Assembly (NCBI GenBank): GCA_021777685.1
Contig: JAJYDH010000003.1
Location: 1 to 37,267, forward strand
DNA from: Planctomycetota bacterium
Lineage (GTDB): Bacteria; Planctomycetota; Planctomycetia; Isosphaerales; Isosphaeraceae
Length of the DNA: 37,267 bases
Direction of reading: 5' to 3'
This document shows positions 12,768 through 29,894 of this stretch, in pieces; the first letter of the stretch is position 1, and every line of letters starts with the position of its first letter. Both the position numbers and the translations under genes were made by a program. The notes under the pieces were generated by a model that did not search any database, had not been told where the DNA came from, and saw nothing but the letters and a program-made list of their open reading frames with translations.

Positions 12768-13106
12768 TCAGCCGTCGTATCGGAACACCCAGCGATTGTC
12801 GACGAAGGTCGCCAGGACGTTGGTCCCCGACGGCGGGACGGCCGACCCGAGATTCAGCGAGAAGAAGGTCGAGTTGCCGACGGTCAAGATTGCCATACCT
12901 CCTTCAACCTCCGGACCCAGGACAGTGAGCGGCGAGCAGGCGTAGAACGTCTGGGCGGAGGTCGGATAGCTCGACTGCGTCTTCGTCTGGGCGACGAGAC
13001 AGGGCATCCCCAGGGTGGGATCGAGCCCGGCCTGGCTGAAGCCGTCGATCAGGGCCGCGTCGCGGATTCGGAGTCGTTTCGCTTCGTCTTCTCGGGCTCT
13101 CATCAA
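12768..13106 (-). CDS. Phage-like cassette, last gene: hypothetical protein
   Basis: 112 aa, ATGA overlap with the preceding hub gene (stop at 13103). Confidence 0.6.
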   Translation of the reverse strand: MMRAREDEAKRLRIRDAALIDGFSQAGLDPTLGMPCLVAQTKTQSSYPTSAQTFYACSPLTVLGPEVEGGMAILTVGNSTFFSLNLGSAVPPSGTNVLATFVDNRWVFRYDG

Positions 13107-15211
13107 TACTGGCCCCGCTGGTCGGAGAGTTGCAGTAGAGTCTGCTGCTTGCCGTCGAAGTCCCAGGTCAATCCGACCACCGCCGGATAGACCTCGCCCT
13201 CCTCAGTTGGCGCGCCGGCGTTGGTCCTGAGCGAGAGGTCGCGTCCCTGGATCGAGCAGATTCGATCGCCGATCTGGTAGGCCTGGGTGAACCTCGGGAT
13301 CGTGATGACACCCGCGACCTCGCCCGCCTCGTTCGCAGTCCGTCGAGCGCTTGCCTCGGCGAGCGCGTCGACGCTGTCGTCGCGAACGACAATCTCATCG
13401 GACGTGGAATTGAACTCGCTGTTGGCGGCCACGACGTGCTTGGCGTAACGGTCCCGGGCGTCGACTCGCCTCAGGACTGTGTAGGAGATCGGGCTCGATG
13501 GCCGTCGATCGGCCGTGGCGGAGAGGATGTGATCGCCCTCGATGACGCAGGTGAGACGGAGCGTGAAGTGATTGGCGCCCTTGTTCGCCTGGTCCTCCAC
13601 GCCCTTGACCACTCCGGCCGGGTAGGGCATGCCGGAGACCTTGGAAGCCTGGATGTTCCAGCTATTGGGGTTCGGCACGTTGATCCAGATGCCGAGCCGG
13701 TCCTTGAGCAGTTCGAAGCCGCCACCGACCGGCTGCCAGGTCCCCGTCCCGTCCCATAAGCCGGGCTGCGAGCCGTTGTAGTCGGTCGAGATCGACAACC
13801 GGGCTTTCAGAGGCTTCTGGTTCGGGTCGAGTGAGAATAATTCGCCGATCGGAATTCGTCGCCTCTTGACGTAACCGGCCGATGGGCCGTCCTGGCTCCC
13901 GAGCAGGTCGTCAAGCGGCGGGACTTCCGTCGAGATCGTCCCGGACTTCCAGTTCCAGTGCCCTTCGCCCGTCTCGTCGAAGACGTAGAGGCGGTACATG
14001 TCGTGGTTCGTCCGCGAGAAATCCGGGCTATTCTTGTCGAAGGCCGCCAGCGCGGAATAACCAACAGCGTCGCCCGCCGAGATCGGAAACCCCGGGGCCA
14101 GGATGAAGGACGCCTCGTATCGGACGAGTTCCGATTCGACCGTGAACGCGTTGGCGACTCCGCTGAAGTCGCGGGCGAGTTGGGCCTCGGCGAGGTTTGT
14201 CTGGCCCGGATCGAGGACAGACCCTCGGGGCTGGAGAAAGAGGTCCTTGTAGGTGGATGCCGAGCCGTCCTGCCGCCGGAAAATATCGAGCGAGGTGGTG
14301 GGATTGCCGCCCGAGTCCGTATCAAGGCGGAACGCCATGCCGAACCCGTTCGGTTCCAGCAGGTCTCGGACGACAGCCGGCCAGGCCTTTCCGGTGGCCG
14401 GGTAATCCGGCACCAGGAGCGGTTCGCTCTGGTAGGTGCTCGGATCGTCGGGCAGGAGTCCGGAGCCCGAGTCCGGTTCTCTGCTGTCGAGGAGCGCATC
14501 GAGGAGAGAACTGTCGGGGTTGATCACATAAGTCTGGTCCGGGTTATGGCGATAGCAGAGGTAGCGGACCGCCATCGGGAGCGTCCAGGCCCGGCGAGCG
14601 TCGGGCTCGCGGATGACGAGGGGATCGAGGAATGTGGGATACGTGTTCCCCGAATCGTCGACCGCGTCGGCCCCGTCCGGTGTCGCGTTCGGGAGGCCTC
14701 CTGGATTGAATTGAGTGATGAGGTCGGTCTCGGAGTCGGAAACGGTGGTCGGGTCGTCGGCGTCGCGCATGAGGGCCCCGCCGATCGGCGTATCCCACTC
14801 CCTGATGGCGACACCGAACGCCACGAACGTGACCATCTCCCGATCCGGGGCGAGGCCCAGCTCCGGGACCTGCGCGAACCCATCGAAGAGGCATTCCGGG
14901 TTCCCGTCCGGGTCGAACGTCAGGACCACGAGCCGATCGTCGTTCGCGACGACCCCGGGCAGATTCGAGTCGACCGATAGCGCATCCTGGAATGAGCCCG
15001 GGTCGGTCGGCGGATCGGCCCAGTCGAAGACGTAACGGAACCGGGCCACGCCCGCGTCGGCGCCCTCGCGATACTGGATCGTCAGGACCCGGATATTAGA
15101 AAGGTATTCATAATTTCCGACAACTCCGGGCAGGTATCGGAAGACGCCGACGGGCGCGGCGGGACGTCCCAGGGGGATGCTCGTCGATTCGATCGAGGCG
15201 AAGGCGGGCAT
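13103..15211 (-). CDS. Phage-like tail hub / tail protein (703 aa)
   Basis: Start MPAFASIESTSIPLG at 15211; C-terminus YQIGDRICSIQGRDLSLRTNAG...YPAVVGLTWDFDGKQQTLLQLSDQRGQY resembles tail hub proteins; position at the end of the tail module. Confidence 0.6.
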   Translation of the reverse strand: MPAFASIESTSIPLGRPAAPVGVFRYLPGVVGNYEYLSNIRVLTIQYREGADAGVARFRYVFDWADPPTDPGSFQDALSVDSNLPGVVANDDRLVVLTFDPDGNPECLFDGFAQVPELGLAPDREMVTFVAFGVAIREWDTPIGGALMRDADDPTTVSDSETDLITQFNPGGLPNATPDGADAVDDSGNTYPTFLDPLVIREPDARRAWTLPMAVRYLCYRHNPDQTYVINPDSSLLDALLDSREPDSGSGLLPDDPSTYQSEPLLVPDYPATGKAWPAVVRDLLEPNGFGMAFRLDTDSGGNPTTSLDIFRRQDGSASTYKDLFLQPRGSVLDPGQTNLAEAQLARDFSGVANAFTVESELVRYEASFILAPGFPISAGDAVGYSALAAFDKNSPDFSRTNHDMYRLYVFDETGEGHWNWKSGTISTEVPPLDDLLGSQDGPSAGYVKRRRIPIGELFSLDPNQKPLKARLSISTDYNGSQPGLWDGTGTWQPVGGGFELLKDRLGIWINVPNPNSWNIQASKVSGMPYPAGVVKGVEDQANKGANHFTLRLTCVIEGDHILSATADRRPSSPISYTVLRRVDARDRYAKHVVAANSEFNSTSDEIVVRDDSVDALAEASARRTANEAGEVAGVITIPRFTQAYQIGDRICSIQGRDLSLRTNAGAPTEEGEVYPAVVGLTWDFDGKQQTLLQLSDQRGQY

Positions 15212-15222
15212 GTCGTCCTCCG

Positions 15223-15951
15223 TCAGCTTCCCATCAGGCCGTGACGCTTCAGGGCGGCGATCAGTGCGTCGACCTTGGCGGCCAGGCTGGCGAAGTTGTT
15301 GTTGAGCACGGTTTGCGAGAACGACTGTCCCACGTCGGCGAGCGTGTCGGAAGCGACACCGGAGGGACTCGCCGCCAGGGGGGTCAACGCCGGCGCCTGA
15401 GAGGCCGGGGCGGCGCCGAAGAAGCCGATCAACACGTTGACCGGGTCGGCGACGACCAGGGACGACCCGGTCGAGGGCGAAGAAACCGTCAGCGGGCCGG
15501 TCATCGTGTCGCCGGCCTTGAGGACGAAACCGAGGCCCGTGCCGGAGACGGAGCACTGAATGCGTTCGTCGACGACCTGGGCGATCGCGGAGGGGCCGAC
15601 GACCACCCGGGCCAGCCTCAGGTGGGCCGTGTTCGGGAACGAGCCCCCCGAGGTCAGGACGCCGGCATCGGTGAGCCAGAGAAAGACCGTCGAGGACGCC
15701 GGGACGGCGAAGGTGGACGCACCGGCAAAGCTGACGATCGTGCCGTCCGACTTGACGAAATTCCCGGGCGAGACGCCGACCTGGAGGGTTGCGCTGGGGG
15801 TATCCGTGGTCGTCACGGCCAGGCCGCCGATGGCCGTCATCCCGTCCAGGGCCTGCGCGTTGGCATTGAGCGTGACGTCCCAGTTCCTGTCGGACGTCGC
15901 GGGCATCTGGAGCCGAGCGTTCGAGGTATACGTTGTCGCCACCGAGATCAC
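15223..15951 (-). CDS. Tail fibre-like protein
   Basis: GTG start overlapping upstream TGA (GTGA). VISVATTYTSNARLQMPATSDRNWDVTLNANAQALDGM...GLGFVLKAGDTMTGPLTVSSP resembles fibre proteins. Confidence 0.6.
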   Translation of the reverse strand: MISVATTYTSNARLQMPATSDRNWDVTLNANAQALDGMTAIGGLAVTTTDTPSATLQVGVSPGNFVKSDGTIVSFAGASTFAVPASSTVFLWLTDAGVLTSGGSFPNTAHLRLARVVVGPSAIAQVVDERIQCSVSGTGLGFVLKAGDTMTGPLTVSSPSTGSSLVVADPVNVLIGFFGAAPASQAPALTPLAASPSGVASDTLADVGQSFSQTVLNNNFASLAAKVDALIAALKRHGLMGS

Positions 15952-16676
15952 TCCGAAGGGCTTGGTAGCCAGTTGAGCGTGAGTTGCGGATTCGACGGCC
16001 CCGCGTAAGCTGAGGTCAACCTTTGTCCGCCGGCGTCCGGCGCCGGGGGCCGAGGGGCGGCGCTGATGATCACGGACGCCGGTGGTCCGGCCCCCCGGGC
16101 ATTGCCGGACCTGTCGAACGGGACGACGGCGAATTGCCACGTGCCCGAGGCGAGCGGGCCGCTCTGCCATTGATAGAGGGTGGCGGCACGACCGAATCCG
16201 CCATTCCCGAACCCGCCCTTGCCGAACCCATCGTTGATCCAGCCGCCCGGGTAGGCGGGCAAGCTGTCGACGACCGTGGTCATGTCGACGGGCATCCCCG
16301 GCGCCGGGCTCTGATAGATCTGAAAGCCCCGGATGTCGTCCTGCCCGGTCGGGTCGAGGTAGGTCCCGCCCGACCAGGTGAGCTGCGCCCGCTCGCTCCG
16401 GCCGCCCGGTGCGACCAGGCTCGTCGAGTAGTCCAGCGTTGGCTCGTCGGGCCCGACCGTCCCAACTTCGACCCAGATGTTGAAGCCGAGCACGCCGGCG
16501 GGGATCGGGACGTGGCAGCGCCTCGAGACGCCATACCAGGCGAGCCTGCGATTAACATAGACCTGAAAGGTCGTCCCCGCCGGGACGGTCGCGGACCAGG
16601 CCACGAAGATGTCGGGGCCGTCGGCCACGACGCGGACGTCGGTGATGCCGGTCTGTGAGAAGGCCATCGGGTTCAC
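15948..16676 (-). CDS. Fn3-like tail-associated protein
   Basis: VRVVADGPDIFVAWSATVPAGTTFQVYVNRRLAWYG; PFDRSGNARGAGPPASVIISAAPRPP beta-sandwich style. Confidence 0.5.
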   Translation of the reverse strand: MNPMAFSQTGITDVRVVADGPDIFVAWSATVPAGTTFQVYVNRRLAWYGVSRRCHVPIPAGVLGFNIWVEVGTVGPDEPTLDYSTSLVAPGGRSERAQLTWSGGTYLDPTGQDDIRGFQIYQSPAPGMPVDMTTVVDSLPAYPGGWINDGFGKGGFGNGGFGRAATLYQWQSGPLASGTWQFAVVPFDRSGNARGAGPPASVIISAAPRPPAPDAGGQRLTSAYAGPSNPQLTLNWLPSPSE

Positions 16677-17065
16677 GTCAGGTGGAGGAATTGGGCCTCA
16701 TAAGCCCGGAAGAATGTCCCATCGGCCGACTGCCGAACACGGCCGACGGGCTGGAAACGCAAGAGCCGCACGTTCAACCAGACCGTCCCCAGGTTGTCGA
16801 TCAACATCCTGGGCACGCCATCGTTGTAGGAGCGGAACGTGCCCTCGGCCGAGGCGAGCAACCCGGCGGATTCGCCGTAGAGGACCCCCCGGACCTGGGT
16901 GATCCGGCCGCGAAACCCGCCGTCGAGCGTCTCGAGGCCATTGATGCCGAAGAATGAATTAACCTGGCTCTCGCGAGGATTATCCGAAGTGCTCATCGAC
17001 ATGGCGGCGCCGAAGATCCCCAAACCACCATAAGAGGCCATGATCTTCCCATCATTGATGAACAA
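16673..17065 (-). CDS. Hypothetical tail-module protein (130 aa)
   Basis: ATGA overlap with the downstream gene, same strand, tail region; FFGINGLETLDGGFRGRITQVRGVLYG. Confidence 0.5.
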   Translation of the reverse strand: MFINDGKIMASYGGLGIFGAAMSMSTSDNPRESQVNSFFGINGLETLDGGFRGRITQVRGVLYGESAGLLASAEGTFRSYNDGVPRMLIDNLGTVWLNVRLLRFQPVGRVRQSADGTFFRAYEAQFLHLT

Positions 17066-17074
17066 AAAGTGTCC

Positions 17075-18196
17075 TCATCGGTCGGGATAGGCCGAGGGGC
17101 CGCCGATCGGCAAGGATGAGGGGCGTTGCTTCCTGACCGCGTCGATCAACTGTTGCAGGAGTTCGTTGGTCTTCGAGAGGTCGATCGAAGGGCCACCCTG
17201 CGACGCCGTCATCGCGGTGAGGACGTTCTGATCCGGACCTTTGCCGGGTCCACCCTGGCCAGCCTGCCCTCCGCCGCTTTCCGGGAAGTCCGGGCTCGCC
17301 ATTGATGCGTTCCTCAGGTCGGCCGAGAGCGGATTCCGGACGAAGATCGTCGAGGATTCGGAGCGGCGGTCGACGGCCTGGGGGCGGTCGCCCATCATCC
17401 CGTGGCCAACGCGGCCTGCCCCGTTCCCCGGTTCATCGGTCGAGCGTTGAGGGCCCGAGGAGTGGGAAGCTCCGTCCGGCTCTCGCGGCAGGTCGACATT
17501 CACGGTCCTCGACGAGACGAGGGAAGACGGGGCCTCGACCGCGGCTCCGCCACGAATCGGGCCGGGTCGTGGATCGATCCCATCGCCGGTTCCGGTCGGG
17601 CGTTGACGAGGATCGTTGACCAGGCCGGGCTGAGAGAAGCCCGGAGATGACGCATTCGCCCTCGCCGAGATCAGGGTCGAAGGCGATGCAGCCCCCGCGT
17701 TCGACTTCGCCGACGCCGGCATCGATTGCGGTCGATCCCCGACCGCGGGCGAGCCGACACCATCACCGACCGGGGACGTTTCGGGCGAACTCCGCTGCGG
17801 GGCGATCCCGGGCATCTCGGACGAAGGAGCATCGACTCTCGTGCGATCGGCGACCGGCCCGTCTTCCGGGAGTCTGACCGGAGGTGCGTCGAGAGACGTC
17901 CGGGGCAACTCAAGCTTGGCTTGAGAGCCCGTTCGGGCGTTCAAACGCCGCGAGACCTCACCGGGTGACCTGGAGATATCCGGTAAGCTGATTCGGGGCC
18001 GTTCCGACGGACGATCGAAGGCCGCTCTCTTCGAGGCGAGCAGCGCGGAGACGGCCTTGGCCTTGTCCTCCAGGGGTGGTCGCGCACGGCCAGGAACACC
18101 ATAAAGTCCGCCTTCACTGTGGGCGTCGCCTGTCCGACTCGCTTTGCCCCCGTTCCGCTTGCTCGAACCTGATTCAATCTCGTATGACATCATCAT
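17075..18196 (-). CDS. Candidate short tape-measure-position protein, Ser/Pro/Arg-rich (373 aa)
   Basis: Lies immediately after the chaperone-position genes; mostly low-complexity; C-terminal helix LSKTNELLQQLIDAVRKQRP. Confidence 0.45.
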   Translation of the reverse strand: MMMSYEIESGSSKRNGGKASRTGDAHSEGGLYGVPGRARPPLEDKAKAVSALLASKRAAFDRPSERPRISLPDISRSPGEVSRRLNARTGSQAKLELPRTSLDAPPVRLPEDGPVADRTRVDAPSSEMPGIAPQRSSPETSPVGDGVGSPAVGDRPQSMPASAKSNAGAASPSTLISARANASSPGFSQPGLVNDPRQRPTGTGDGIDPRPGPIRGGAAVEAPSSLVSSRTVNVDLPREPDGASHSSGPQRSTDEPGNGAGRVGHGMMGDRPQAVDRRSESSTIFVRNPLSADLRNASMASPDFPESGGGQAGQGGPGKGPDQNVLTAMTASQGGPSIDLSKTNELLQQLIDAVRKQRPSSLPIGGPSAYPDR

Positions 18197-18200
18197 TTCT

Positions 18201-18632
18201 CTATTTTGTCGCCACCGGGTCTTCCGGGCATTCGCCGGTGACGACCGACAGGACAGCCTCGACGAGCCTGGGGAGCTCGTCGACGCCCATCTCCAGCAGC
18301 GAGGCCGCCTCCGTCAGATCGATGTCGTGCGCCCGGAGTAGCAGGGCCGCGGCCAGTCGGATCAGCGCCTCGTATTGCCTCTCGGCCGCCGGTTGCTCGC
18401 AGGCGGAGCGCAGATCATCGACCAGTCGGCGGATTTCGAGCGGGTAGCCGAACTCGGACGCGACCTGGATCGTCTCGTCGGGGCGACCCAGGGTGTCGAC
18501 ACCCCCGACGACGACGAGCCTGAGCCGGGGCGAGGGCAAGGCGAGCCCCCAGTCGTTCCCGTCGGATAGAATGATCGGACGAGTAGCGATGCCCTCGCGA
18601 CGGGTGCGGTCGGGCGTGGGTCGGGCGTCCAT
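18201..18632 (-). CDS. Putative tail assembly chaperone-position protein B
   Basis: TGATG overlap with the upstream gene; shares LSDG..W.LA.P and YDLT/IDLT..LLE segments with the 18632-19171 product. Confidence 0.5.
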   Translation of the reverse strand: MDARPTPDRTRREGIATRPIILSDGNDWGLALPSPRLRLVVVGGVDTLGRPDETIQVASEFGYPLEIRRLVDDLRSACEQPAAERQYEALIRLAAALLLRAHDIDLTEAASLLEMGVDELPRLVEAVLSVVTGECPEDPVATK

Positions 18633-19171
18633 CAGATGAGTCGCTCCAGGGATTCCCGGTCACGGGCCGCCCGGCATGCATCCACGAACTGGGAAGGTGG
18701 GACGGTCCTGTTGGTGGCGATCAGGATCGTGAGCACGTCATTGAGCGACGAGGCCGGGATCTCGGCGAGGCCGAGGCCGTTGGCCAGGAGGCTCGCCCGG
18801 ACCCAGTCGACGTAGCCCCTGACGCGTTGATCGGGCCCGAACAGCGATTCGAGGACGACCTTGGCCAGTGCCTCCGCTTCGGTCCCCGGCTCCACCTCCA
18901 GCAACTCGGCGACCTCAACGTCGGTGAGGTCGTAATTGGCCACGAGAAGGGATCGCGCGACATCGAGGACATCGGCCAGGGAGACGTCGTCTCCCAGGAC
19001 GATCTGCTCGTGGAACCGCTCGATCGCCGGGTCGACGTTCGGCGTGGTCAGGCCCGTCGAGGTCGGGCGGAAGGCCGGCTCGGCGAGCAGCCAGGGCCGG
19101 CCGTCGGAGAGTTGGACGAGGCGGCCCCGGGCGCCCGGCTTCCGCCTCTCGTGCTCGGTCGCGTCACACAT
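18632..19171 (-). CDS. Putative tail assembly chaperone-position protein A
   Basis: MCDATEHERRKPGARGRLVQLSDGRPWLLAEP... between tail tube and tape-measure position; start ATG 19171 overlaps the stop of the 19164-19442 gene. Confidence 0.5.
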   Translation of the reverse strand: MCDATEHERRKPGARGRLVQLSDGRPWLLAEPAFRPTSTGLTTPNVDPAIERFHEQIVLGDDVSLADVLDVARSLLVANYDLTDVEVAELLEVEPGTEAEALAKVVLESLFGPDQRVRGYVDWVRASLLANGLGLAEIPASSLNDVLTILIATNRTVPPSQFVDACRAARDRESLERLI

Positions 19172-19442
19172 CGGCCTGGAATCGCCCGTAAGAGACACCG
19201 TCGCCGCGATCGGTCCACGCGTATCGAGGCCGGCCGCATCGGTCATCGGACTGCGGGAAGAGCAGAGTATCGGTCGGGCTTCCCGTGATGAAATGTTTCG
19301 TCCCCTGGTGTCGGACGTAGACGCGGGGGACCTGGAGGAGTGCCGAGAACTCGGCGTGGAGCCTGGCCAGCCGGCTCGCGGCGTCGCCGGCGCCCGCGTA
19401 ATTCAAGGGGGTGAGGACGGCATCGGGGATGAAGTCGGCCAT
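19164..19442 (-). CDS. Hypothetical tail-module protein (92 aa)
   Basis: MADFIPDAVLTPLNYAGAGDAASRLARLHAEFSALLQVPRVYVRHQGTKHFITGSP; same strand, short overlap with the next gene. Confidence 0.5.
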   Translation of the reverse strand: MADFIPDAVLTPLNYAGAGDAASRLARLHAEFSALLQVPRVYVRHQGTKHFITGSPTDTLLFPQSDDRCGRPRYAWTDRGDGVSYGRFQADV

Positions 19443-19457
19443 GAGGGCTCCCGGATT

Positions 19458-19895
19458 CTAGAGGGCGATGCTCGTGGACAGCGGGTTGGTGACCCCGTCG
19501 CCCGAGAACGCGCCGAGGGTCATGCTCCCCTGCCCGAACTGGCGATGGGCACCGTGGACCTGGCAGGCGGAGACGACCGCGTTGGCCAGGGTGTAGGTCA
19601 CCGCGCCCGTGCCCACGCCGTTCTTGGCGTCGTTGTGGGTCGCCGAGAACGTCCCGATCGTACCGATGGGGTTGGCCTGGAGCGCGGAGAGGTCGGCCGC
19701 ATGGATGGTCACGCTCGGCTCGTTGAAGTCGTTGACCATCGTGGTGACGAAACGATCGCCGTCCCCGGCGAACCGGGCGATGCTGCCGCCGCTGTCGATC
19801 GTCACCGAAGTCACGCCGGTGATGGCCGTCGCGGAGCCGTTGACCGGCGTGAACGTGACGCCGGTCCAGTTCATGAATCTTTTGGTCGCCGACAT
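19458..19895 (-). CDS. Putative tail tube protein (145 aa)
   Basis: MSATKRFMNWTGVTFTPVNGSATAITGVTSVTIDSGGSIARFAGDGDRFVTTMVNDFNEPSVTIHAADLSAL; size and position fit a major tail protein. Confidence 0.6.
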   Translation of the reverse strand: MSATKRFMNWTGVTFTPVNGSATAITGVTSVTIDSGGSIARFAGDGDRFVTTMVNDFNEPSVTIHAADLSALQANPIGTIGTFSATHNDAKNGVGTGAVTYTLANAVVSACQVHGAHRQFGQGSMTLGAFSGDGVTNPLSTSIAL

Positions 19896-19907
19896 GATTT
19901 CCTCCGA

Positions 19908-20540
19908 CTAAAATGAAGCGGGGACGTTGCTCGTGGGGTCGATGAGCGAGGAGAATTCGCCCTGGAGTTCGACGGATTGCTCGGGATAGTTAGCCGAATA
20001 CTCGTAACGCCCCGCGCGGATCCGCGTCAGCGGGCTCAGGCACGTGCCGTCGAGGCCCGAGCGGTCGACGACCGCCTTGACGGCGGACGTGAGCTGATCG
20101 AGGAGGTCGAATCGCGGGGACCCATCCTCGACCTTGACCACGACGGTGATCGCAAAGGTCACCCGGCGGACGATCAGGGCGGGGTCGAAATCGTCGGATT
20201 CCTCCCAACCCTGGGGAGTCACGACCGCCAGCGGATAGCAATCGGCACCGGCCTGGCCTCGCTGGGTCGCCGAGCCCGAGATCACCTCCAGGAACACTCC
20301 CGTCGCCCTGAGCAGGGAGAGGAGGGCTTCGTATGAGGCCTGGTCGGCTCCCGGGAGCCCCGGATTGACCGGCACCGTGACGGGAGCCGCCGATCCCCCG
20401 TAAAAATAGGAGGGCGCGAAGTACGTCGGGGAGTTGTAGGGCGTGGTGCCCGTCGGGGCCGGGGTCAGACCCGGGGCCGTCGCGGCATAGAAATACGAGG
20501 GCGGGAAGTACGTCGGCGCGTAAAAGGGCGCGGCGTCCAT
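19908..20540 (-). CDS. Putative tail terminator/minor tail protein with N-terminal aromatic repeats
   Basis: N-terminus APTYFPPSYFY ... SPTYFAPSYFY; C-terminal part (SYEALLSLLRATGVFLEVISGSATQRGQAGADCYPLAVVTP...RVTFAITVVVKVEDG) precedes the tail tube gene. Confidence 0.5.
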   Translation of the reverse strand: MDAAPFYAPTYFPPSYFYAATAPGLTPAPTGTTPYNSPTYFAPSYFYGGSAAPVTVPVNPGLPGADQASYEALLSLLRATGVFLEVISGSATQRGQAGADCYPLAVVTPQGWEESDDFDPALIVRRVTFAITVVVKVEDGSPRFDLLDQLTSAVKAVVDRSGLDGTCLSPLTRIRAGRYEYSANYPEQSVELQGEFSSLIDPTSNVPASF

Positions 20541-20553: not shown

Positions 20554-21279
20554 TCAGGAGGGCAGCGTCAGTGTCACCGAGGAACGGTTGCCGGCATTGT
20601 CCGTGGTCGCCGAGATCCGGGTCGTGGAGGAATTGCCGCCCTTGATGACGACCACGCCCGTCCCCGCGCCGGAGACGACGCCCGCGCTGGCCGCGAGGAT
20701 CGGCGAGAGCGCCTGCCTCGCGTTGACGCCGCTCTCGACCTGGATCGCATCCAATCCCGAGGGTGCCAGGGTGTAACCGGCCTTGTCGTTGACCGTGCCG
20801 ACGGTGACAGCGGCCGCCACGCCGGCGACAACCCCGCCCGCATAGGTCGAGCGGCTGGAAACCTGGGCGTCGAGGTTCTGCCCCAGGATCGCGCCGGCGG
20901 TCCCGGTCGCATAGGAGCCGGGCAGCGGGGCCGACCAGGGGTCGACCACGGCCCCTCCGGGCTGGGGGATCACCGTCGCATCGTCGCCGGCGTGCATCGT
21001 CGCCGCCAGCTCCGCGACAACGTTATTCGACGCCGCCTGGTCGTGGACCGTGATGACGTAATCGCCGTCGGTGAATTGCGCGGGGGGCGTCGGGGTCAGC
21101 GTCACCTTGTATCGCCCGACGTAGATCCCGGTATCTTCCGGGAGGCTGCTGATGGGAGTCGCCGGGGTGGCGACGAACGTCCCGTTCGAGAAATCATAGA
21201 ACGTCCCGTCGTTCAGCCGCTCGATCGAATAGCCGAGCTGCGACTTGGTCGTGTACTGAAAGCGAATTCGCAAGGCCAT
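20554..21279 (-). CDS. Hypothetical beta-rich phage-like structural protein
   Basis: MALRIRFQYTTKSQLGYSIERLNDGTFYDFSNGTFVATPATPISSLPEDTGIYVGRYKVTLTP; in the cassette, same strand. Confidence 0.5.
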   Translation of the reverse strand: MALRIRFQYTTKSQLGYSIERLNDGTFYDFSNGTFVATPATPISSLPEDTGIYVGRYKVTLTPTPPAQFTDGDYVITVHDQAASNNVVAELAATMHAGDDATVIPQPGGAVVDPWSAPLPGSYATGTAGAILGQNLDAQVSSRSTYAGGVVAGVAAAVTVGTVNDKAGYTLAPSGLDAIQVESGVNARQALSPILAASAGVVSGAGTGVVVIKGGNSSTTRISATTDNAGNRSSVTLTLPS

Positions 21280-21288: not shown

Positions 21289-21696
21289 TCAGGCATGAGA
21301 AAAGAAGAGTGCATTGACGGCGATCACCGGCGCGGTGGTGCCGCTGTTGATGGACGCGGGGGCCGGCAGGTCGGCCATGGCCAGGACATTGCCGCCGCTG
21401 GCCGCGTCGGCGACGAAGACGCTCAGGATCGACCCCCAGGCGGCGGAGGGGGCGGGGAATGCGATCGTCGCGGCGTTCGACTTGGTCCCGGCCGAAGCCG
21501 CCGGGAAATGGGCCGGGTTGTTCGGCACGGCGACCCTCGCATAGGAACCGCCCGTCGGTTCGGACACATAGCCGCCCCGGAACGACCTGGTGAGCGACAG
21601 GCCGACGTAGAGGGTCGAGGGCGGGGTGATCGCCGCGCCCCCGAAGAAGCAATCCAGCACCTTGTTGTTCGCGAGGTCGGTCAGGAATCCGGGCAT
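21289..21696 (-). CDS. Phage tail fibre-family-like protein (135 aa)
   Basis: LTDLANNKVLDCFFGGAAITPPSTLYVGLSLTRSFRGGYVSEPTGGSYARVAVPNNPAHFPAASAGTKSNAATIAFPAPSAAWG matches the typical small fibre-like pattern. Confidence 0.65.
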   Translation of the reverse strand: MPGFLTDLANNKVLDCFFGGAAITPPSTLYVGLSLTRSFRGGYVSEPTGGSYARVAVPNNPAHFPAASAGTKSNAATIAFPAPSAAWGSILSVFVADAASGGNVLAMADLPAPASINSGTTAPVIAVNALFFSHA

Positions 21697-22032: not shown

Positions 22033-22608
22033 TCAGGCCGTCGGGATCGCCACCAGGGAGTCGACGCCGCTCAATGGGGCGACCTGGTAAGTGATCGAGA
22101 AAGTGGCGGCGGGGCTCACCAGGGTGGGCGACGCGCCCACGGCCTGGACGGCGATCGTGTACGTCACGTCGCTCGCAAGCCCCGAGAGGGTGCAGCCGTA
22201 TCCGACGACACCGGGCAGATAGGCGACCGTGGCGGTGGAAGACGTCCCTCCGGACGTCAGGGTGACGACGAACTCGACGGGCGGGCCGCCCTGCCCCTTG
22301 GCCTGGTAGCCCCAGGAAACCCAGCACGTCCCTGTGGGCAGGGCCCGGGCGGAGAGGCCGACGACGGCGTTGGGTCGCATCGTCACGTCGTTGCCGGCCG
22401 CGTCGATCACGATCCGGACCCGGGCGTCCGTGTTCGCCTCCTCGATCGCCGAGACGGTGTCGAAGGCGCGGACGGCGAAGGCATTGTCGCTCGGGGCGGC
22501 CAGGGGGCCGACGGTGTAGGGCGGGGCGGCCGTCGTGGCGATCGGCCTGCCGTAATCCACGTCGCCGCCCCGGCCGTCGTTTCCGTAGATGTTGTATGAG
22601 ATCGCCAT
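22033..22608 (-). CDS. Fn3-like structural protein (192 aa)
   Basis: ATG 22608; MAISYNIYGNDGRGGDVDYGRPIATTAAPPYTVGPLAAPSDNAFAVRAFDTVSAIEEANTDARVRIVID is an Fn3-like pattern. Confidence 0.55.
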   Translation of the reverse strand: MAISYNIYGNDGRGGDVDYGRPIATTAAPPYTVGPLAAPSDNAFAVRAFDTVSAIEEANTDARVRIVIDAAGNDVTMRPNAVVGLSARALPTGTCWVSWGYQAKGQGGPPVEFVVTLTSGGTSSTATVAYLPGVVGYGCTLSGLASDVTYTIAVQAVGASPTLVSPAATFSITYQVAPLSGVDSLVAIPTA

Positions 22609-22609
22609 G

Positions 22610-23308
22610 TCACCTCGAGATCCGCGTGCTGAACCGGGTCGTGGCGATCGAACGGGCGGCGACATCGGCCTCGTTCCACCGGAGCGCGAGCCGATCCAGC
22701 ACCTCGTCAAGCTCGGATTTGACGATCCGGGCCTTCGCCGAGTAGACGTCGCCCGGCGTCCCCGCCTGGTCCGCGATCGGCCCGGCGAACTGCCGGCTCT
22801 GGTCGAGGTACTGCTTGTAGAGGACCGTCAGGACGACGGCCTCGCGGAGCTGCTGGGGATCGTAGAGGTCGACCGATCGGCGGCCGGCGATCGCGTCATC
22901 GATGCCGAACCGCCGGTCGAGGTCGTAGCTGGCCAGTTGGATCTGCGGCCCGAGCGACCGGACCGTGAACTCGACGCTGGTCAGCCCGCCCGGAGGCGCG
23001 GGGGGCTGGCCCACCCCGGCCGCCTGCCCCTTGCGCCGGAGCGTGATCGCCCCGGGGGATACGGCCTGGATCGCCAGCAATTCCCCGTTGGGCCCGAAGT
23101 TCGACGAGGGTTTGCTCAGGCGAGCCACCTGACCCGGAACGAGCCCGAAGGCATTGAAGTCGACCGAGGTTGAGGTGAGCGTCCAGGGGTCCGAGGCCGA
23201 GAAGACGCCGTCCGTGCCCGAGGCGAGGAGCTGGTCCCTGGGGCAGAGGGCCGAGAAGTCGGACGAGGCGCGGAGGGCGATGTCCTCATCCGTCGCGTAG
23301 ACAATCAT
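22610..23308 (-). CDS. Putative head-tail connector/adaptor protein
   Basis: MIVYATDEDIALRASSDFSALCPRDQ...YDLDRRFGIDDAIAGRRSVDLYDPQQLREAVVLTVLYKQYLDQSRQF; downstream of capsid genes. Confidence 0.5.
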   Translation of the reverse strand: MIVYATDEDIALRASSDFSALCPRDQLLASGTDGVFSASDPWTLTSTSVDFNAFGLVPGQVARLSKPSSNFGPNGELLAIQAVSPGAITLRRKGQAAGVGQPPAPPGGLTSVEFTVRSLGPQIQLASYDLDRRFGIDDAIAGRRSVDLYDPQQLREAVVLTVLYKQYLDQSRQFAGPIADQAGTPGDVYSAKARIVKSELDEVLDRLALRWNEADVAARSIATTRFSTRISR

Positions 23309-23682
23309 GATGGTTCTCGCATGCTCCCGGGGCCCTTTCGCCCCGCCCGAGGCGCGGGAAGCGAGGGCGGGGCGGGATTCGACTCGACCCGGGGCCCGGT
23401 CTCTTCCTCGACGGGCGGCGTGGGTCGCCGGCCCGCCTCGACGTCGGCGAGCATCAGCTCGGCGGCCCGGAGGGCGGTGGCGAGCTGGTCGCGGAACTCG
23501 GCGGCCTTGGCCAGGATGCCCTCGACGTGCGCCCGGTCGCCGTGAGCGGCCTGGGCACAGAGGTTCGCCAGGGCGGTGAGGGTCGCGATCCGCCGGGCGG
23601 GGCCGGCGGTCTCGGGGCGGCCTAGCTCCGCCGCGGCGGCGTCCAGGAAGGCGGGATAACCGGGGAAGACGTAGGATGACAA
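23305..23682 (-). CDS. Hypothetical cassette protein (about 125 aa)
   Basis: Probable TTG start at 23682 after the capsid gene; SSYVFPGYPAFLDAAAAELGRPETAGPARRIATLTALANLCAQAAHGD; ATGA overlap with the next gene. Confidence 0.5.
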   Translation of the reverse strand: MSSYVFPGYPAFLDAAAAELGRPETAGPARRIATLTALANLCAQAAHGDRAHVEGILAKAAEFRDQLATALRAAELMLADVEAGRRPTPPVEEETGPRVESNPAPPSLPAPRAGRKGPGSMREPS

Positions 23683-23752
23683 CGGAGACGCCTCGCCTTG
23701 GGGTTGGCCCCCCGGCCGTGCGGCCGAGGGGCTGGGGACCGACCCGGGCCGA

Positions 23753-24895
23753 TCAGGTGGCCGAGAAGGCCGTGACGCCTTCGAGCCAGGCATGGTGGGC
23801 CGGGTTCTCGATCTCGATGGCCCCTTCGGCCATCCAGTCGCCTTCGAACGAGTCGCCCCGGATGCCTCGCGGGTTCCAGAACTCGTTCCGCTTCATCCGC
23901 ATCCGGACCTCGGACGAGGTCAGGGCGACCGCCGTGAACGGCTTGAGCAGCGGAGCCTCGATGATCGTCAGGCCGCCGAGGAAGGGCGCCTCGAAGACGT
24001 CGATCGGCGTGCCGAAGACGTTGGTCCCGGCGTTCACCCGCATCACCGCCTGGCCCCACGTCGCCAGGCCGAGCATGAAGTTGGTCGAGAGCAGCAGGAC
24101 GTCCGGGTCGCCGCCGCCGGCCCGGCTCAGCTCGAGCGTGTCGCGGATGAAGTCGGTCGCCTTGTAGGCGCCCGCGTTGGTGGGGCTGACCGTGTTGTTG
24201 ACCGACAGGAGGGCCTTCAGGCCCTTCTGCTTCGGCCGGGTCGCCACCGAGGGGTCCTCACCTCGGCCGTAGTAGCTCGACGACTCCATGTCGTCCATCA
24301 GGTTCTGGAGGGCGTCCATCTTGACCTGCTCGAACGGCGTCCGGACGCCCGGCGAGGTCTGGTAGCCGGCCGACGCCTGGAGCGAGCCGCCGACCTGCAC
24401 CGGGTGCTGCCAGGTCTGGCAGTACTGGGTGACGCCGACCGGCCTGATCCCGATGCCGTTCTGGTTGATCTCGGTGCCGCTCCGGCTGTTCGAGATCAGG
24501 CGGATGGTGTCGCCCGAGTTGCCGGTCCCGGCCGTGGTCCCCTCGGCGGCCCGGCGGACCGAGACGGTGCCGGCGGCCACGTTCGGGTCGGCGATGATCT
24601 CGACCCGCTCGCCCGAGGCGAGCTCGAGGACGTCGCCGTTCATGAGCGGGCTGACGTCGGCCAGGGTGATCTGGCCGTCGGTCGCGGCCACGGCGGCGGC
24701 CAGCGTGGCGATCCGGGGGCGGAACGACCGGCTCACGATCGAGAACGTGGTCGAGCCGACCGGAACCCGGGGCGTCCGCGTGACGATCGGGCAGCGGTTG
24801 ACGAACCAGTTCGACGTGACGACGTAGATGTCGTTGACGATCTGGGCCTGGTTGTCGAACGCGGCCTGGATTCCTTGCAGATAGCTGCTGGGCAT
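23753..24895 (-). CDS. Major capsid protein, SU10-type / DUF5309-like (380 aa)
   Basis: MPSSYLQGIQAAFDNQAQIVNDIYVVTSNWFVNRCPIVTRTPRVPVGSTTFSIVS...LMNGDVLELASGERVEIIADPNVAAGTVSVRRAAEGTTAG...GTEINQNGIGIRPVGVTQYCQTWQHPVQV; SD-like GGAG upstream. Confidence 0.75.
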   Translation of the reverse strand: MPSSYLQGIQAAFDNQAQIVNDIYVVTSNWFVNRCPIVTRTPRVPVGSTTFSIVSRSFRPRIATLAAAVAATDGQITLADVSPLMNGDVLELASGERVEIIADPNVAAGTVSVRRAAEGTTAGTGNSGDTIRLISNSRSGTEINQNGIGIRPVGVTQYCQTWQHPVQVGGSLQASAGYQTSPGVRTPFEQVKMDALQNLMDDMESSSYYGRGEDPSVATRPKQKGLKALLSVNNTVSPTNAGAYKATDFIRDTLELSRAGGGDPDVLLLSTNFMLGLATWGQAVMRVNAGTNVFGTPIDVFEAPFLGGLTIIEAPLLKPFTAVALTSSEVRMRMKRNEFWNPRGIRGDSFEGDWMAEGAIEIENPAHHAWLEGVTAFSAT

Positions 24896-25005
24896 GAAAG
24901 CAAACTCCGCTGTTGAGCGAGCTCATGGAGACGCCGCGATGCGGACGCTCGACGCGGCGGTCCGGGATCGGCGGCACGATTGGGAGAGACGGGACGGGGA
25001 CGAGT

Positions 25006-25647
25006 CTAGCGGCGACGGCCCCACCCGGCCGGGGTGGGCGACGCTTGCGGTCGCGAGGCGTTCTCGCGCCACTGGAGGATGACCGCCTCGCCCAGGGTCC
25101 TGGGAGCGGCGGGCTCGGGTGACGTCGAGGCCGAGCGGTTCTGGCCCTTCGCCCCCGTCCCGCCCCGCGACGAGGGGAGGCAGAAGTGGGCGAACTCGGG
25201 GCCGGCGAGCCGTTCGGCGACGGCCCGATCGACCGCCCGGCCGTCGCGGGCCAGGACCCGGATCTCGCCGTCCTCGTCGACGACCTCGAAGTCGTCGCGG
25301 AGGAGCTTGATCAGCTGCGCCGCGGCGCCGGGGACCAGGGGCTTGCCGACCAGGGACGTCGCCAGCTCCCGGTCGCGGAGCGCGGCCTTGTAGGCCCGCT
25401 CCAGCTCGGTCGCCTTCTGCTCGCGAGCGGCGATCTCGCGCGAATGGGCGGCCTCGCGCGTCTTCAAGACCTCGGCGAATTCCGAACGGGCCAGGGGCAA
25501 GGCTTCGGGGTCGGGCTTCGAGGGGAGGCCGTCGGCTCGGGCCCTCAGCTCGTCGAGCTCCGCCCGCGAGATCGTCACGTTATCGTCGTCGAGCGGGCCT
25601 CCTTCCGGCCCGAAGTCGGCAGACCTGAGGATTTGGCAGGGTCGCAT
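25006..25647 (-). CDS. Putative capsid scaffolding-like protein (213 aa)
   Basis: ATG 25647; charged coiled region RAELDELRARADGL...TREAAHSREIAAREQKATELERAYKAALRDRELATSLVG directly before the capsid gene. Confidence 0.55.
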   Translation of the reverse strand: MRPCQILRSADFGPEGGPLDDDNVTISRAELDELRARADGLPSKPDPEALPLARSEFAEVLKTREAAHSREIAAREQKATELERAYKAALRDRELATSLVGKPLVPGAAAQLIKLLRDDFEVVDEDGEIRVLARDGRAVDRAVAERLAGPEFAHFCLPSSRGGTGAKGQNRSASTSPEPAAPRTLGEAVILQWRENASRPQASPTPAGWGRRR

Positions 25648-25661
25648 GGTGGCACTCGAGA

Positions 25662-25775
25662 TCAAGGGAGGTCGCGGCGGTCGAGGAGGCCGAGCATGAA
25701 CGGGATCACGACCGTCATCATCGTGACGGTGATCGCCAGGCCGACCGCGAAGGCGGAGAACAACGACAGGAGCAT
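25662..25775 (-). CDS. 37-aa single-TM peptide between portal and scaffold genes
   Basis: Hand-translated: MLLSLFSAFAVGLAITVTMMTVVIPFMLGLLDRRDLP*; below the length cutoff of the ORF track. Confidence 0.5.
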   Translation of the reverse strand: MLLSLFSAFAVGLAITVTMMTVVIPFMLGLLDRRDLP

Positions 25776-26116
25776 GTTGACTCCGGATCAGGGAAGGTTT
25801 GGTCTCGCGAGGGCGGAGGTCAGGCCCTCGCCCCGCGTCCCGACAACCCTTGCCCGTCGGCCGCCACGTTCCAGGCCGACCGTTCGAACGCAAACAGGGA
25901 CGTCCCAAAGACTTGAAAAATCGACTACTGCTCACTTTTCGCGAGCGGACGGCCCTTCGGGCGGCTTCCGTCGACGACGGCCTTCGAAAAGGGACCGGGC
26001 GGGGTCGGCGTCGTCGGCGGCCCTCCCGGGTCGTCGACGACGCCTCCCCCGCCCGATCGGACCGGCCGCCCGGCCCCGATCTTGAGCGGTACGAAAGACG
26101 GGGCCGGGCGGCTGGC

Positions 26117-27778
26117 TCAGGACGCGGACGCGCCGGTTGCGGCCTCGCCGCCCTCGCGCCCGCGATGTCTCTCGTCGAGGTAAGCGGTCAGCTCCTCGTC
26201 GCACTCCGCGTACTGGATGTCGCCCAGGCCCGGCAGGCAGAGCCTCGTCAGCTTGGCGAGCATCAGCCCCTCGATGATCGGCAGGGCCCCCGCGCCGGCG
26301 ACGAGCTGCTGGAAGCTCGCGGTCGCGGCGGCCATGTCGGCGGCCGTGAACAGGTCGAACTCGGTCGGGTAGACGATCCAGATCGACCGGGGGTCGGGCG
26401 GGCCGTCGTCGAGGACGGTCGAGGCCATCTCGGCGATCAGCTCCTCGGCCCGGCCGAGGATCTTGGCGATCTTGGCCAGGCGGTTGTTGCCGTCGGAGTG
26501 GTCGAACGCCTTCGACAGGCCCGATTGCGCCACGCCGTCGCGGCCGGTCGGGCGGACCAGGGCCGAGTCGCGGTCGACGTCGTCTCGGAGGTCCGCCTTG
26601 TTCTTCCGGATCGAGTCGGCGCCGTCCTTGGGGAAGTCGACGACGTCGAACCCCTCGTAGGTCGTCGAGCCGCCCTGCGAGTTCTTCTTCTTGGGCAGGA
26701 GCCAGCTCGGGCCGATCGGGATCGTGCCGTCGGCCTGGACGAAGTCCTCGGGCCCTTGCAACAGGGGGTGGGCCTGCGTGGTGTCGGAGAGGATCAGCTC
26801 GCTGTCGCGGTTGTAATACTCGCGCTGGCGCTCGGCGACCCCCTCATATCGGGGCTGGCCGATGTTCTTGCACCGGGGCTTCCGGCGGTCGAAGACGCGG
26901 ACGATCGGGACCCGGCCGAACGGGTGCGGCGTGACCGAGAGGACGTTCCCCTCGCCGTCGTAGAGCGTCGAATCCTCGTCGGTCCAGAGCCGGAACCGCT
27001 CGTCGCGGCCTCCGAGCCCCGCGCGGAACGGGCCTCCGAGCCCCTCGCGGTCCGCCGGGCCTTCGAGCCAGTCGCCGGCCAGGCCGCCGATGCCCTCGTG
27101 GACCTCGCGGACCAGGCACTCGGCGTAGCGGTGGCCGGTCTCGTCGAGCCGCCACCAGAGCATGTTCTCGGGGAGGATGTACGAGGCAACGCAGCGGTCG
27201 AGCCCCAGCCGTTCGGCGTCGGCCCGGGTCTCGACCTCCTCGCCCGCCGGGACGGCGGGGTGGTCGAAGGCCAGGTCGAGCTGGCCGAGCGTCAGGAGCA
27301 GCGGGGCGACGGTCTCGGCCATCCACTGGTCGATCGTGGTCCCGCAGCCGTCGACGTCGGACCACCAGCCCATCAGCCGGTCGGGGCCGACCCGCTTGAT
27401 CTCGCGGGCGTAGATCCGCGAGAGGTGCGTGTCGATCGCCTCGGCGACGAACGTCGGGACCGGCGTCCGGGCCCGCCTCAGCTCGTAGTCGTCGTCGGTG
27501 GCCATCGCCGCCGGGTCGCTGCCGACGGCGAAGGGCGACATGCCGGGCAGGTACGGGTCGTACATCGACCCGGCCGCCTCGCGGGGGTCGGGATACTCGC
27601 GCTTGTGCCGGATCAGGTTGCGGATCGGCAGGCCGCGGAGGTCGTAGCCGTAGACGGCCTGGCGGTAGCGCTCGCCCCCTTCGAGGGAGTCGAGCAGCCA
27701 TCGCCAGCGGAGTTGATGTTCGCGCCACTCGGGGTGGCGGCGTCGGATCAGGTCGAGGGATTCGGCGGTGGGTGGCAT
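26117..27778 (-). CDS. Phage portal protein (553 aa)
   Basis: MPPTAESLDLIRRRHPEWREHQLRWRWLLDSLEGGERYRQAVYG...FVAEAIDTHLSRIYAREIKR...SELILSDTTQAHPLLQGPEDF; TGATG overlap with terL. Confidence 0.75.
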   Translation of the reverse strand: MPPTAESLDLIRRRHPEWREHQLRWRWLLDSLEGGERYRQAVYGYDLRGLPIRNLIRHKREYPDPREAAGSMYDPYLPGMSPFAVGSDPAAMATDDDYELRRARTPVPTFVAEAIDTHLSRIYAREIKRVGPDRLMGWWSDVDGCGTTIDQWMAETVAPLLLTLGQLDLAFDHPAVPAGEEVETRADAERLGLDRCVASYILPENMLWWRLDETGHRYAECLVREVHEGIGGLAGDWLEGPADREGLGGPFRAGLGGRDERFRLWTDEDSTLYDGEGNVLSVTPHPFGRVPIVRVFDRRKPRCKNIGQPRYEGVAERQREYYNRDSELILSDTTQAHPLLQGPEDFVQADGTIPIGPSWLLPKKKNSQGGSTTYEGFDVVDFPKDGADSIRKNKADLRDDVDRDSALVRPTGRDGVAQSGLSKAFDHSDGNNRLAKIAKILGRAEELIAEMASTVLDDGPPDPRSIWIVYPTEFDLFTAADMAAATASFQQLVAGAGALPIIEGLMLAKLTRLCLPGLGDIQYAECDEELTAYLDERHRGREGGEAATGASAS

Positions 27779-29385
27779 CAGAAGATCTTCCGGCCGTTGA
27801 CTCGCTTGAGGTTCGATTTCGACAGTCGTCCCTGGGGATATCGCGCCCGGACCCCGCCCCGGAGGGCGTCGACCAGGTCCTCGTAGGGGTGCTGCGGGTC
27901 CTCCGGCTGGTCGAGCCACTGGCCGGCCCGCTTGGCCCGCCGATAGCACTGGAGGGCCTGGATCAGCGAGGCGCAGCGGGGGTGGACCACGAGCTGAGGC
28001 TCGCCGATGGCCGGGTTGATGAACGAGTCGAGCAGCGTCAGCCCGTCGGCCACCTTGCTGTAGGGCCATGCCTTCAGCGTGAGCCCGGCCCGCTCGTACT
28101 CGGCCAGGACCGTCGGGCCGATCGCGTTCCGGGAGTTGCCGGCGGGGTCGGTCACGGCGTGCTGGATCGAGCCGCCGCAGCGGTCCCGCGCCAGGGACAG
28201 CAGCGCCCGGGCGTTGGCCTCGGCCGACAGGCCCTCCGACAGGTAGTCGGCGAAGACCCGGATCTCGTCCACCGGGCCCTCGGCGTCCCCCGTTCTCTTG
28301 GCCACCTGGAAGAAGACGGCGCCGGTGAAGACGCCCGTGTCGATGGCGACGTAGACCTCCTCGCCGGGGGCGAACTCGGCCCGCTCGCGGACGTGCGACT
28401 CGGGCTGGAAGCCGGGGAACCAGGCCGCGTCGCTCGACGAGAGCTTGCAGAGGTAATCCGCCTCGAAGACCCGCGTGCCGGTCGTCTTCAGCTTCTGGAT
28501 CAGCGAGTCGATCGGGTAATGGCCGTCGGACCGCTTGGCCTTCGGCTCGACGCCGTCGGGGACGTCGTAGCAGTAGGTCTTCAGCGGGCATTCCGGGCAC
28601 TTCTCGTAGCCCGTGTCGGTCTTCGGCCCGGAGCGCTCCCTGGGGCACCGTTCGAGGACCTCGAAGACGCACATCGTGTAGAGCGGGAAGTCTCCCGCCT
28701 CGGCCTGGGCGATCAGCTTGGCCATCGGGCCGTTCACCCGGTGGCAGGTCGAGGTCATGATCACCGAGGCGTCCATCTTCGGCCGCTTCTTCTTCCGGTC
28801 GGCCTTGCGGCCCAGGCACATCCCCATCGCCGACTCGCGGATGTCGACGTCGATCTCGTCGACCTCGTCGAGCTTGAGGCTGGGGACGTGCGGGCCTCGG
28901 ACGCTGGTGGGCGAGGCGGCGAGGATCTCCACCTCCGAGCCGTTCTGGTAGGCGGCCCCGTCCTTCCTCAGCTTGAGGATCGCCCCCGAGTCGCCCCCCT
29001 TCTTCCCCTCGTGCCTCATGGCGATGGCGCGGAGCGCGTGGTAGATCTGGACCGACTGCGCCTTGCTCCCGCCGAGGATCCGGGTGCCGTGATCGGGGTC
29101 CCAGCGGCTCGTCAGGTGGGTGTCGAGGGCCGAGAGGAACGACTTGCCGCACCCCCGGGAGCCGAGGATCAGGGCGACCCCCGGCCGTTTCAGGTGGATC
29201 GCCTCGAAGCATTCCCAGGCGGAATGGTGGTCGGTGCAGACCGCCTTGTCGGGGATCTTGATCCCCGTGTAGTCGCGGAGCCAGCGTCTGAGCTGGCCGG
29301 CTGTCTTCGGGCGGACGTTGCGGAGGTCGGCCTCCGGCATCGCCCCGGGCCTGGGGTTCACCTTCTTGGGCATGTTGATATTCAC
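27778..29385 (-). CDS. Phage terminase large subunit (535 aa)
   Basis: Walker A VALILGSRGCGKSF, Walker B-like SLKLDEVDEIDVDI, nuclease-like VYVAIDTGVFTGAVFFQVAKRTG. Confidence 0.85.
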   Translation of the reverse strand: MNINMPKKVNPRPGAMPEADLRNVRPKTAGQLRRWLRDYTGIKIPDKAVCTDHHSAWECFEAIHLKRPGVALILGSRGCGKSFLSALDTHLTSRWDPDHGTRILGGSKAQSVQIYHALRAIAMRHEGKKGGDSGAILKLRKDGAAYQNGSEVEILAASPTSVRGPHVPSLKLDEVDEIDVDIRESAMGMCLGRKADRKKKRPKMDASVIMTSTCHRVNGPMAKLIAQAEAGDFPLYTMCVFEVLERCPRERSGPKTDTGYEKCPECPLKTYCYDVPDGVEPKAKRSDGHYPIDSLIQKLKTTGTRVFEADYLCKLSSSDAAWFPGFQPESHVRERAEFAPGEEVYVAIDTGVFTGAVFFQVAKRTGDAEGPVDEIRVFADYLSEGLSAEANARALLSLARDRCGGSIQHAVTDPAGNSRNAIGPTVLAEYERAGLTLKAWPYSKVADGLTLLDSFINPAIGEPQLVVHPRCASLIQALQCYRRAKRAGQWLDQPEDPQHPYEDLVDALRGGVRARYPQGRLSKSNLKRVNGRKIF

Positions 29386-29479
29386 GGGGAGGGTGTTGAG
29401 CGGGGGGAGCGGGCTCGCCGCGCTCCGCGCCGGCGAGGCTGACCGATCATCTCATCGAAGGACGTTCGCGGGGCCTATT

Positions 29480-29620
29480 CTTCCTCCCTCTCCCTCCGGG
29501 AGAGGGCCGGGGTGAGGGTCGTCGCCGGTTGAGTGATGTCGTCGGAGCCCCTTCTTCGGGGCTACCTCCGATGCGGCGTCCCTTTCCCCGGCCCCGCTCC
29601 CAGGGGGAGAGGGGAGGAAG
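29480..29620. repeat. Inverted pair of REP-like GC-rich palindromes
   Basis: Left CTTCCTCCCTCTCCCTCCGGGAGAGGGCCGGGGTGAGGG (from 29480); right reverse complement CTTCCTCCCCTCTCCCCCTGGGAGCGGGGCCGGGGAAAGGG (29580-29620); central hairpin AGCCCC-TTCTTC-GGGGCT 29546-29563. Confidence 0.65.
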
Positions 29621-29666
29621 ATCAGCCTATCCGCCCGTCGAGCGTCGCGAAGCGAAAGGTCCGGCG

Positions 29667-29894
29667 TCAGCCCGCGTATTTCGTCCGGAATTCCTTGACG
29701 ATCGCCGCGATCCGCGAATGCGGCAGGTCGAAGACGTCCGCCAGCAATCGTTGCGAGGCGCCGTTCTGGCTGGCGATGAAGATGACCAGATTGCGCCGGA
29801 ACTTCCAGCGACGGCCGACCGTGGCGTTCTCCGGCAGGGTCGGCACCGAGAAGGATGCGGATTCAACCTTGGACAGAAGGGCGTTGGCTGCCAT
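29667..29894 (-). CDS. Small HTH protein, candidate terminase small subunit or regulator (75 aa)
   Basis: MAANALLSKVESASFSVPTLPENATVGRRWKFRRNLVIFIASQNGASQRLLADVFDLPHSRIAAIVKEFRTKYAG; AAGGTGA-type SD before ATG 29894. Confidence 0.6.
   Translation of the reverse strand: MAANALLSKVESASFSVPTLPENATVGRRWKFRRNLVIFIASQNGASQRLLADVFDLPHSRIAAIVKEFRTKYAG

Follow-up and report, generated by a model that had tools for sequence, protein, structure and literature searches.

What is a block of phage-type head and tail genes, set among ordinary chromosomal genes, doing in a planctomycete? The locus in question belongs to a member of the family Isosphaeraceae (Planctomycetota), whose genome (6.26 Mb, 82% complete) contributes the stretch analyzed here, a single contig in its entirety (C151; GenBank JAJYDH010000003.1; 37,267 bp; hereafter, the window). 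At positions 12768–29894, in the interval between egtD and trm112, lie about 22 genes, all on the minus strand and tightly spaced (mostly −8 to +15 bp), that make up a phage-derived structural cluster with DNA packaging machinery. We propose that this head–tail cassette was domesticated by the Isosphaeraceae, is passed on vertically with the host chromosome, and probably works in the manner of a gene transfer agent (GTA), in which case it would package and transfer host DNA.

Searches against PHROGs and Pfam, together with fold comparisons, bear out a preliminary description of this sequence as a minus-strand head–tail cassette. The packaging and head genes are recognized directly: the large terminase TerL (27778–29385, 535 aa; phrog_2, E = 1e-14), the portal (26117–27778, 553 aa; phrog_145, E = 2e-32), the scaffold (25006–25647, 213 aa; phrog_206, E = 3e-12), and a major capsid protein (MCP) of the SU10 type (23753–24895, 380 aa; PF17236 SU10_MCP, E = 2e-31; phrog_1328, 1e-11), which scores 110 bits against a curated cut-off of 24.1 and whose profile matches PDB entry 9in6 with E = 4e-16. 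The Walker A and B motifs and the nuclease-type aspartates of TerL are invariant across 18 relatives, including Tautonia. For the tail, a moderate-confidence AlphaFold2 model of gene g11 (19458–19895; pLDDT 71) has as its best PDB fold match the siphophage tail tube 8gtb (E = 1.2e-3, probability 1.00, TM 0.52). A low-confidence model of gene g19 (13103–15211, 702 aa; pLDDT 49) yielded 18 Foldseek matches with E < 1e-3, all of them hubs and tube proteins of tails or injection systems, which supports its assignment as the tail hub; by sequence, gene g19 matched no PHROG or PDB entry. The siphovirus-like gene order noted earlier stands, yet the capsid and fiber proteins are of podophage type, and the gene count rises from about 21 to about 22. 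Start codons were revised for TerL, portal, scaffold, and a helix-turn-helix (HTH) gene (29667–29894), and an open reading frame at 21289–21696 and a 37-aa membrane peptide at 25662–25775 were newly assigned to the cassette.

The cassette carries few marks of a mobile element. Neither integration nor replication genes were found in the cassettes of its type (type I, defined below) by PHROGs and Pfam searches and from gene maps. As the preliminary description had it, there is no att-like repeat (the longest word common to both sides is 11 bp, compared with 9–13 bp in shuffled sequences), no tRNA gene in the window, and no GC break at the cassette. Its claim that the cassette is bounded by hairpins does not hold, as the 7 terminator-like sites are no more than chance would supply (8.1 ± 2.7 in shuffles). 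The neighbors are those of an ordinary chromosome, namely genes for inorganic pyrophosphatase, phosphofructokinase, EgtD, RicT, and a Planctomycetes/Verrucomicrobia marker family.

How widely is the cassette distributed, and does it keep its place? Our comparison used one genome per species, many of them metagenome-assembled and with approximate gene calls, and the surroundings of 23 cassettes were mapped by BLAST and a simple codon-usage gene caller. A single TerL query found matches in 36 of the 45 genomes of the GTDB family, representing 16 of its 21 genera, some of them partial and to other elements; none contains an internal stop. The MCP profile gave convincing matches in 32 of the 45 Isosphaeraceae genomes and in none of 354 other genomes of the same class. 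Weak profile matches outside the family were rejected as repeat-like stretches covering profile columns ~60–135, mostly within very large proteins. The Pfam profile Terminase_6N found nothing in the genome of the window despite the presence of TerL, and is therefore unusable as a screen here.

The egtD-to-trm112 interval proved to be a conserved slot. The arrangement ppa–rmlD–cvpA–S4–pfk–egtD, cassette, trm112–ricT is common to at least six genera. We refer to the cassettes of this group as type I; their left flank is cvpA–S4–pfk–egtD and their right flank either trm112–ricT or fabF-like–Minf_1886–methyltransferase. Both slot flanks are present in the genome of the window, in Tautonia (G040–G043), and in G004, and also, spread over two contigs, in G015 and G007. 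Only the right flank is seen in G027 and G011, and in G026 ppa and pfk lie ~15 kb upstream of the cassette on the same contig. Three genomes (G034, G036, and G037) carry the cassette at another locus, with one neighborhood common to all three. The slot is empty in two complete Singulisphaera-like genomes, where egtD and ricT are separated by 210 bp (G038) and 126 bp (G039), without any cassette gene and without trm112. Separately, we observed solitary TerL-like genes of ~480 aa, ~40–46% identical, in three genomes (L101 in G020:C388, L111 in G018:C230, and L112 in G023:C161); they lie near a kinase gene and c102/c60 genes, with no other phage gene recognized alongside.

For 14 type I genomes, a tree of rpoB was compared with one of TerL, portal, and MCP. 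Eight of 11 splits agree, a level reached in 0 of 2000 label permutations (maximum, 3 splits), and the cassette and rpoB distances are strongly correlated (Mantel r 0.915). G027 and G015 account for the mismatches; their deep position in the trees has weak support. All type I cassettes fall into a single clade (support 99/99). Judged from these trees, the type I cassette is inherited vertically with its host.

We estimated omega and dS, the nonsynonymous-to-synonymous ratio and the synonymous divergence, by the NG86 method with Jukes–Cantor; the omega values are rough because dS is high. Between the genome of the window and its nearest relative, G044, omega is 0.07–0.27 for cassette genes (0.10 for the hub) and 0.07–0.17 for flanking host genes, and the dS ranges overlap (0.6–1.8 and 0.6–2.0, respectively). 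In the close Tautonia pair G040/G042, omega is 0.060 for TerL, 0.068 for portal, and 0.061 for MCP, with dS of 0.39–0.56 for these three genes and 0.29–0.84 for host neighbors; G043 and G041 are further apart, and between them every gene gives a higher omega (TerL 0.22, MCP 0.27; pfk 0.16, egtD 0.29). The gene pairs compared between type I cassettes contained no stop codon. By these measures, the cassette genes are intact and under purifying selection, and the selection comparison singled out earlier for TerL, portal, and MCP thus gave omega well below 1. One may ask whether the cassette is instead a decaying prophage remnant fixed by drift, given that the tail module is missing in some lineages and that g6, g10, and g15 are variable. 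With uninterrupted frames, low omega, and persistence across genera at 50–87% protein identity, we regard decay as scarcely credible.

Related elements with the equipment of temperate phages do exist in the family. Three long viral contigs (IMG/VR L072, L076, and L078; 54–64 kb) each encode a tyrosine integrase, and a second copy in G030 has an integrase 12 kb upstream of TerL. A further set of cassettes, type II, is larger than type I and occupies other loci. Type IIa, found in Paludisphaera and Aquisphaera, follows its hosts (Mantel r 0.962); type IIb occurs in two or three further genera, with too few rows for a test of host tracking. The type II cassettes of Paludisphaera and Aquisphaera (L051–L052, L061–L062, and relatives) have no integrase in their vicinity but have kept a sigma-70 factor and, in some cases, a D5-like primase; in G030, an integrase lies ~30 kb from the main type II cassette on the same contig. 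In one host-tracking type II cassette, that of Paludisphaera soli (G031), a stop, possibly an assembly error, divides the portal gene (L070:2750–4363) into pieces of 415 and 60 aa. Viral contigs and second copies branch between the cassette groups in the tree, and domestication may therefore have happened more than once.

These relatives, and the primase and sigma factor retained in some Paludisphaera, lend some substance to a reading of the locus as an ordinary prophage, or as repeated, independent insertions at a favored site by prophages of a single phage family. Such elements would have to lack an integrase and att-like repeats, share the host's phylogeny and its dS, occupy one slot across genera, and occur as a single orthologue per genome; moreover, in five complete or near-complete genomes (G004, G011, G041, G001, and G032) the orthologous cassette has no integrase closer than 200 kb. 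We conclude that the cassette is not an ordinary prophage, and consider the multiple-prophage variant highly unlikely as well. Of the earlier suggestion of a GTA-like or domesticated particle, domestication is upheld by the slot, its empty counterpart, the host-congruent tree, the intact frames, and purifying selection; att sites with an integrase are absent, presence is family-wide at one genome per species, and the structural genes show no decay. That the domesticated particle acts as a GTA is our inference.

Does the particle need its tail? The tube and hub are present in the genome of the window and in other full forms. Unexpectedly, profile searches for both (threshold E ≤ 1) found no credible match genome-wide in four Tautonia genomes (94–99% complete), four genomes of a lineage designated g19 (distinct from the gene of that name), G004, and G027, the last being 77% complete but with a cassette contiguous as far as trm112. 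In all four lineages TerL, portal, scaffold, and MCP are nevertheless present and intact. The complete order in the Tautonia slot is TerL, portal, membrane peptide, scaffold, MCP, g6, g7, g10, c39, trm112; G027, G034–G036, and G004 encode large fiber or tailspike-like proteins in addition. The tail-less lineages do not group on the rpoB tree; this points to two or three independent losses, provided that the ancestor had the full form. The small gene c39 (60–71 aa; e.g., L034:17193–17405, L041:17424–17639, and L033:4792–5004) adjoins trm112 and occurs only in the tail-less slot cassettes of Tautonia and G027, with a possible 60-aa counterpart in G004; its being common to Tautonia and G027 would also be compatible with a single origin or with exchange. 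Non-homologous tails may have replaced the original ones. A search with PF06841 was uninformative, as its controls failed to match, and PF10145 matched only G041, G042, and, weakly, G004, a pattern without a conserved substitute tail; the G041 match lies 6 kb from an integrase and so is probably part of a prophage.

In conjunction with the gene content, we propose the following model for the full cassette. In phages, a procapsid is built and loaded with DNA by TerL, portal, MCP, and scaffold; the genome of the window encodes these components, with a capsid of the SU10 type, along with a short tail module of the non-contractile type, all of them intact and under purifying selection. Upon a host signal, some cells would assemble capsids, which TerL would fill headful-wise with host DNA, since no phage genome exists for packaging. 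The particles would then be released by lysis, through genes encoded elsewhere.

Several observations weigh against this GTA-like function. About one quarter of the family is without the cassette, which is therefore dispensable. No lysis, regulatory, or small-terminase gene was identified with confidence; no lysin was found in the cassette, loci elsewhere in the genome not having been searched. The carbon-cheap amino acid composition typical of GTAs was not seen when type I TerL, portal, and MCP were compared with viral homologues (p = 0.44–0.73); in type IIa, the carbon content is lower than that of viral homologues for portal and MCP. Finally, four lineages without tail tube or hub anywhere fit poorly with phage-like tail delivery, and such relatives show that some copies must differ from a textbook GTA.

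It is conceivable that the head, and the tail where present, was domesticated for a role other than gene transfer, as a particle that kills relatives, a decoy or anti-phage assembly, or a compartment storing DNA or protein. Loss of the tube and hub in Tautonia, G004, G027, and lineage g19, with the head genes still under purifying selection, would suit such a role, as would the high variability of fiber and tailspike genes among relatives. Yet every form retains the portal and TerL with intact motor and nuclease motifs, which neither a compartment nor a tailocin would need, and head-only forms cannot be tailocins. We therefore judge these roles unlikely. The tail-less relatives suggest that selection acts on the head and its packing of DNA, and that tail delivery is dispensable in some lineages. 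For Tautonia and allied lineages we tentatively raise, as a possibility we hold with some doubt, that tail-less capsids pump in host DNA as head-only GTAs or DNA-export capsids, their content reaching other cells without a phage tail after more than one loss of it. GTA particles have been described as DNA-filled capsids with a tail (PMC11841831), and the head-only Tautonia cassettes would depart from that description. Cultured carriers apparently exist: Tautonia sociabilis GM2012 and, putatively, T. plasticadhaerens ElP (G041; PMC7716859), which is head-only, as well as a putative full-form carrier, 'Kueselia aquadivae' EP7 (G011; PMC12603096). A comparison of full and head-only carriers would bear directly on which part of the domesticated particle selection preserves.

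The remaining genes fill out the particle. The 75-aa HTH protein before TerL, with a weak PF10074 match, could be a regulator or else supply the DNA-binding part of a small terminase; it is 70–75% conserved in full type I cassettes (G044, G007, G011, and G026) and in G041, and was not found in the remaining Tautonia, G027, or G004. The single-span membrane peptide between portal and scaffold (37–50 aa among relatives; motif (V/I)xP...G(L/F)..RR) is a candidate holin-like protein or membrane anchor, confined to type I and present in 12 of the 13 type I regions covering the portal–scaffold gap. Downstream of MCP follow g6 (23305–23793; an alternative start at 23682 would give 125 aa), a small conserved head gene that keeps its place in many type I cassettes, those of Tautonia among them; g7 (22610–23308, 232 aa), in the head–tail connector position and conserved in almost every cassette of types I and II; and g8 (22033–22608), a syntenic FN3-like protein (PF00041, weak, E = 0.014). 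Gene g8b (21289–21696) encodes a fiber protein of the podophage GP4 gp80 family (PF23140 Gp80, E = 6e-30), whose counterpart in the tail-less G027, G034, and G035 is the C-terminal part of a ~1000-aa tailspike-like fusion; beside it lies g9 (20554–21279), a syntenic fiber-like repeat protein. The g10 product (19908–20540), for which no family match was found, is placed as tail terminator or neck completion by position and conservation, and is retained in tail-less forms.

Beyond the tube lie g12 (19164–19442), a small tail-module gene syntenic in full cassettes; g13 (18632–19171; weak phrog_7947) and g14 (18201–18632), assigned by position to tail-assembly chaperones; and g15 (17075–18196, 373 aa), in the tape-measure position, short, of low complexity and poorly conserved, with no gene called at the corresponding place in G011. 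The distal genes are g16 (16673–17065; 40–65% identical in full type I and II cassettes), the putative tail-tip genes g17 (15948–16676; 39–59% identical in full cassettes) and g18 (15223–15951; syntenic), and, after the hub, g20 (12768–13106), the last of the cassette and syntenic in full cassettes. Outside the cassette, the rmlD–cvpA gap (34545–35187, plus strand) holds short open reading frames resembling a fragmented VapBC-type antitoxin/PIN toxin pair, not seen there in other genomes. An open frame of 1618 aa that runs antisense to pfk, egtD, and cvpA (30248–35104, plus strand) was rejected as a gene and attributed to high GC content.

How does the cassette relate to known systems? Zavarzinella formosa presumably belongs to the Gemmataceae, a family other than that of the cassette's hosts. 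A prophage of this planctomycete, called intact and with an RcGTA-like TerL, has been discussed together with GTAs (PMC7947584); no GTA in Planctomycetota turned up in the open-access (PMC) literature. The temperate Isosphaeraceae contigs and the G030 prophage copy have homologous portal, MCP, TerL, and connector genes in similar order, but differ from the cassette in their integrases and many extra genes. With SU10- and GP4-like podophages the cassette has in common the capsid family PF17236 and the fiber family PF23140; unlike them, it joins these to a tube and hub of the long-tailed type, and no replication or lysis gene was found in it. INPHARED phages gave only marginal, partial matches (23–26%) to portal and TerL.

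According to Fogg's review (PMC11841831), different phages have repeatedly given rise to GTAs, experiment is the only means of confirming one, and the main obstacle is that there is no way to spot distant ones. As in the RcGTA type of Rhodobacterales and Caulobacter, the Isosphaeraceae cassette is a phage-derived head–tail cluster, vertically inherited, under purifying selection, and without integration or replication genes (PMC11841831). The MCP, portal, and TerL profiles have no sequence match to RcGTA chains in the PDB, and the tube model has only a weak fold match to the GTA neck chain 6toa. Unlike RcGTA, the cassette has an SU10-type capsid, a planctomycete host, and tail-less derivatives. 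Next to BaGTA, VSH-1, Dd1, and VTA, it would represent another separate origin from a different phage; those agents were found by experiment, this one through the evolution of its genes. If it is indeed a GTA, its origin is apparently independent, and it was recognized by host-congruent inheritance rather than by similarity to RcGTA.

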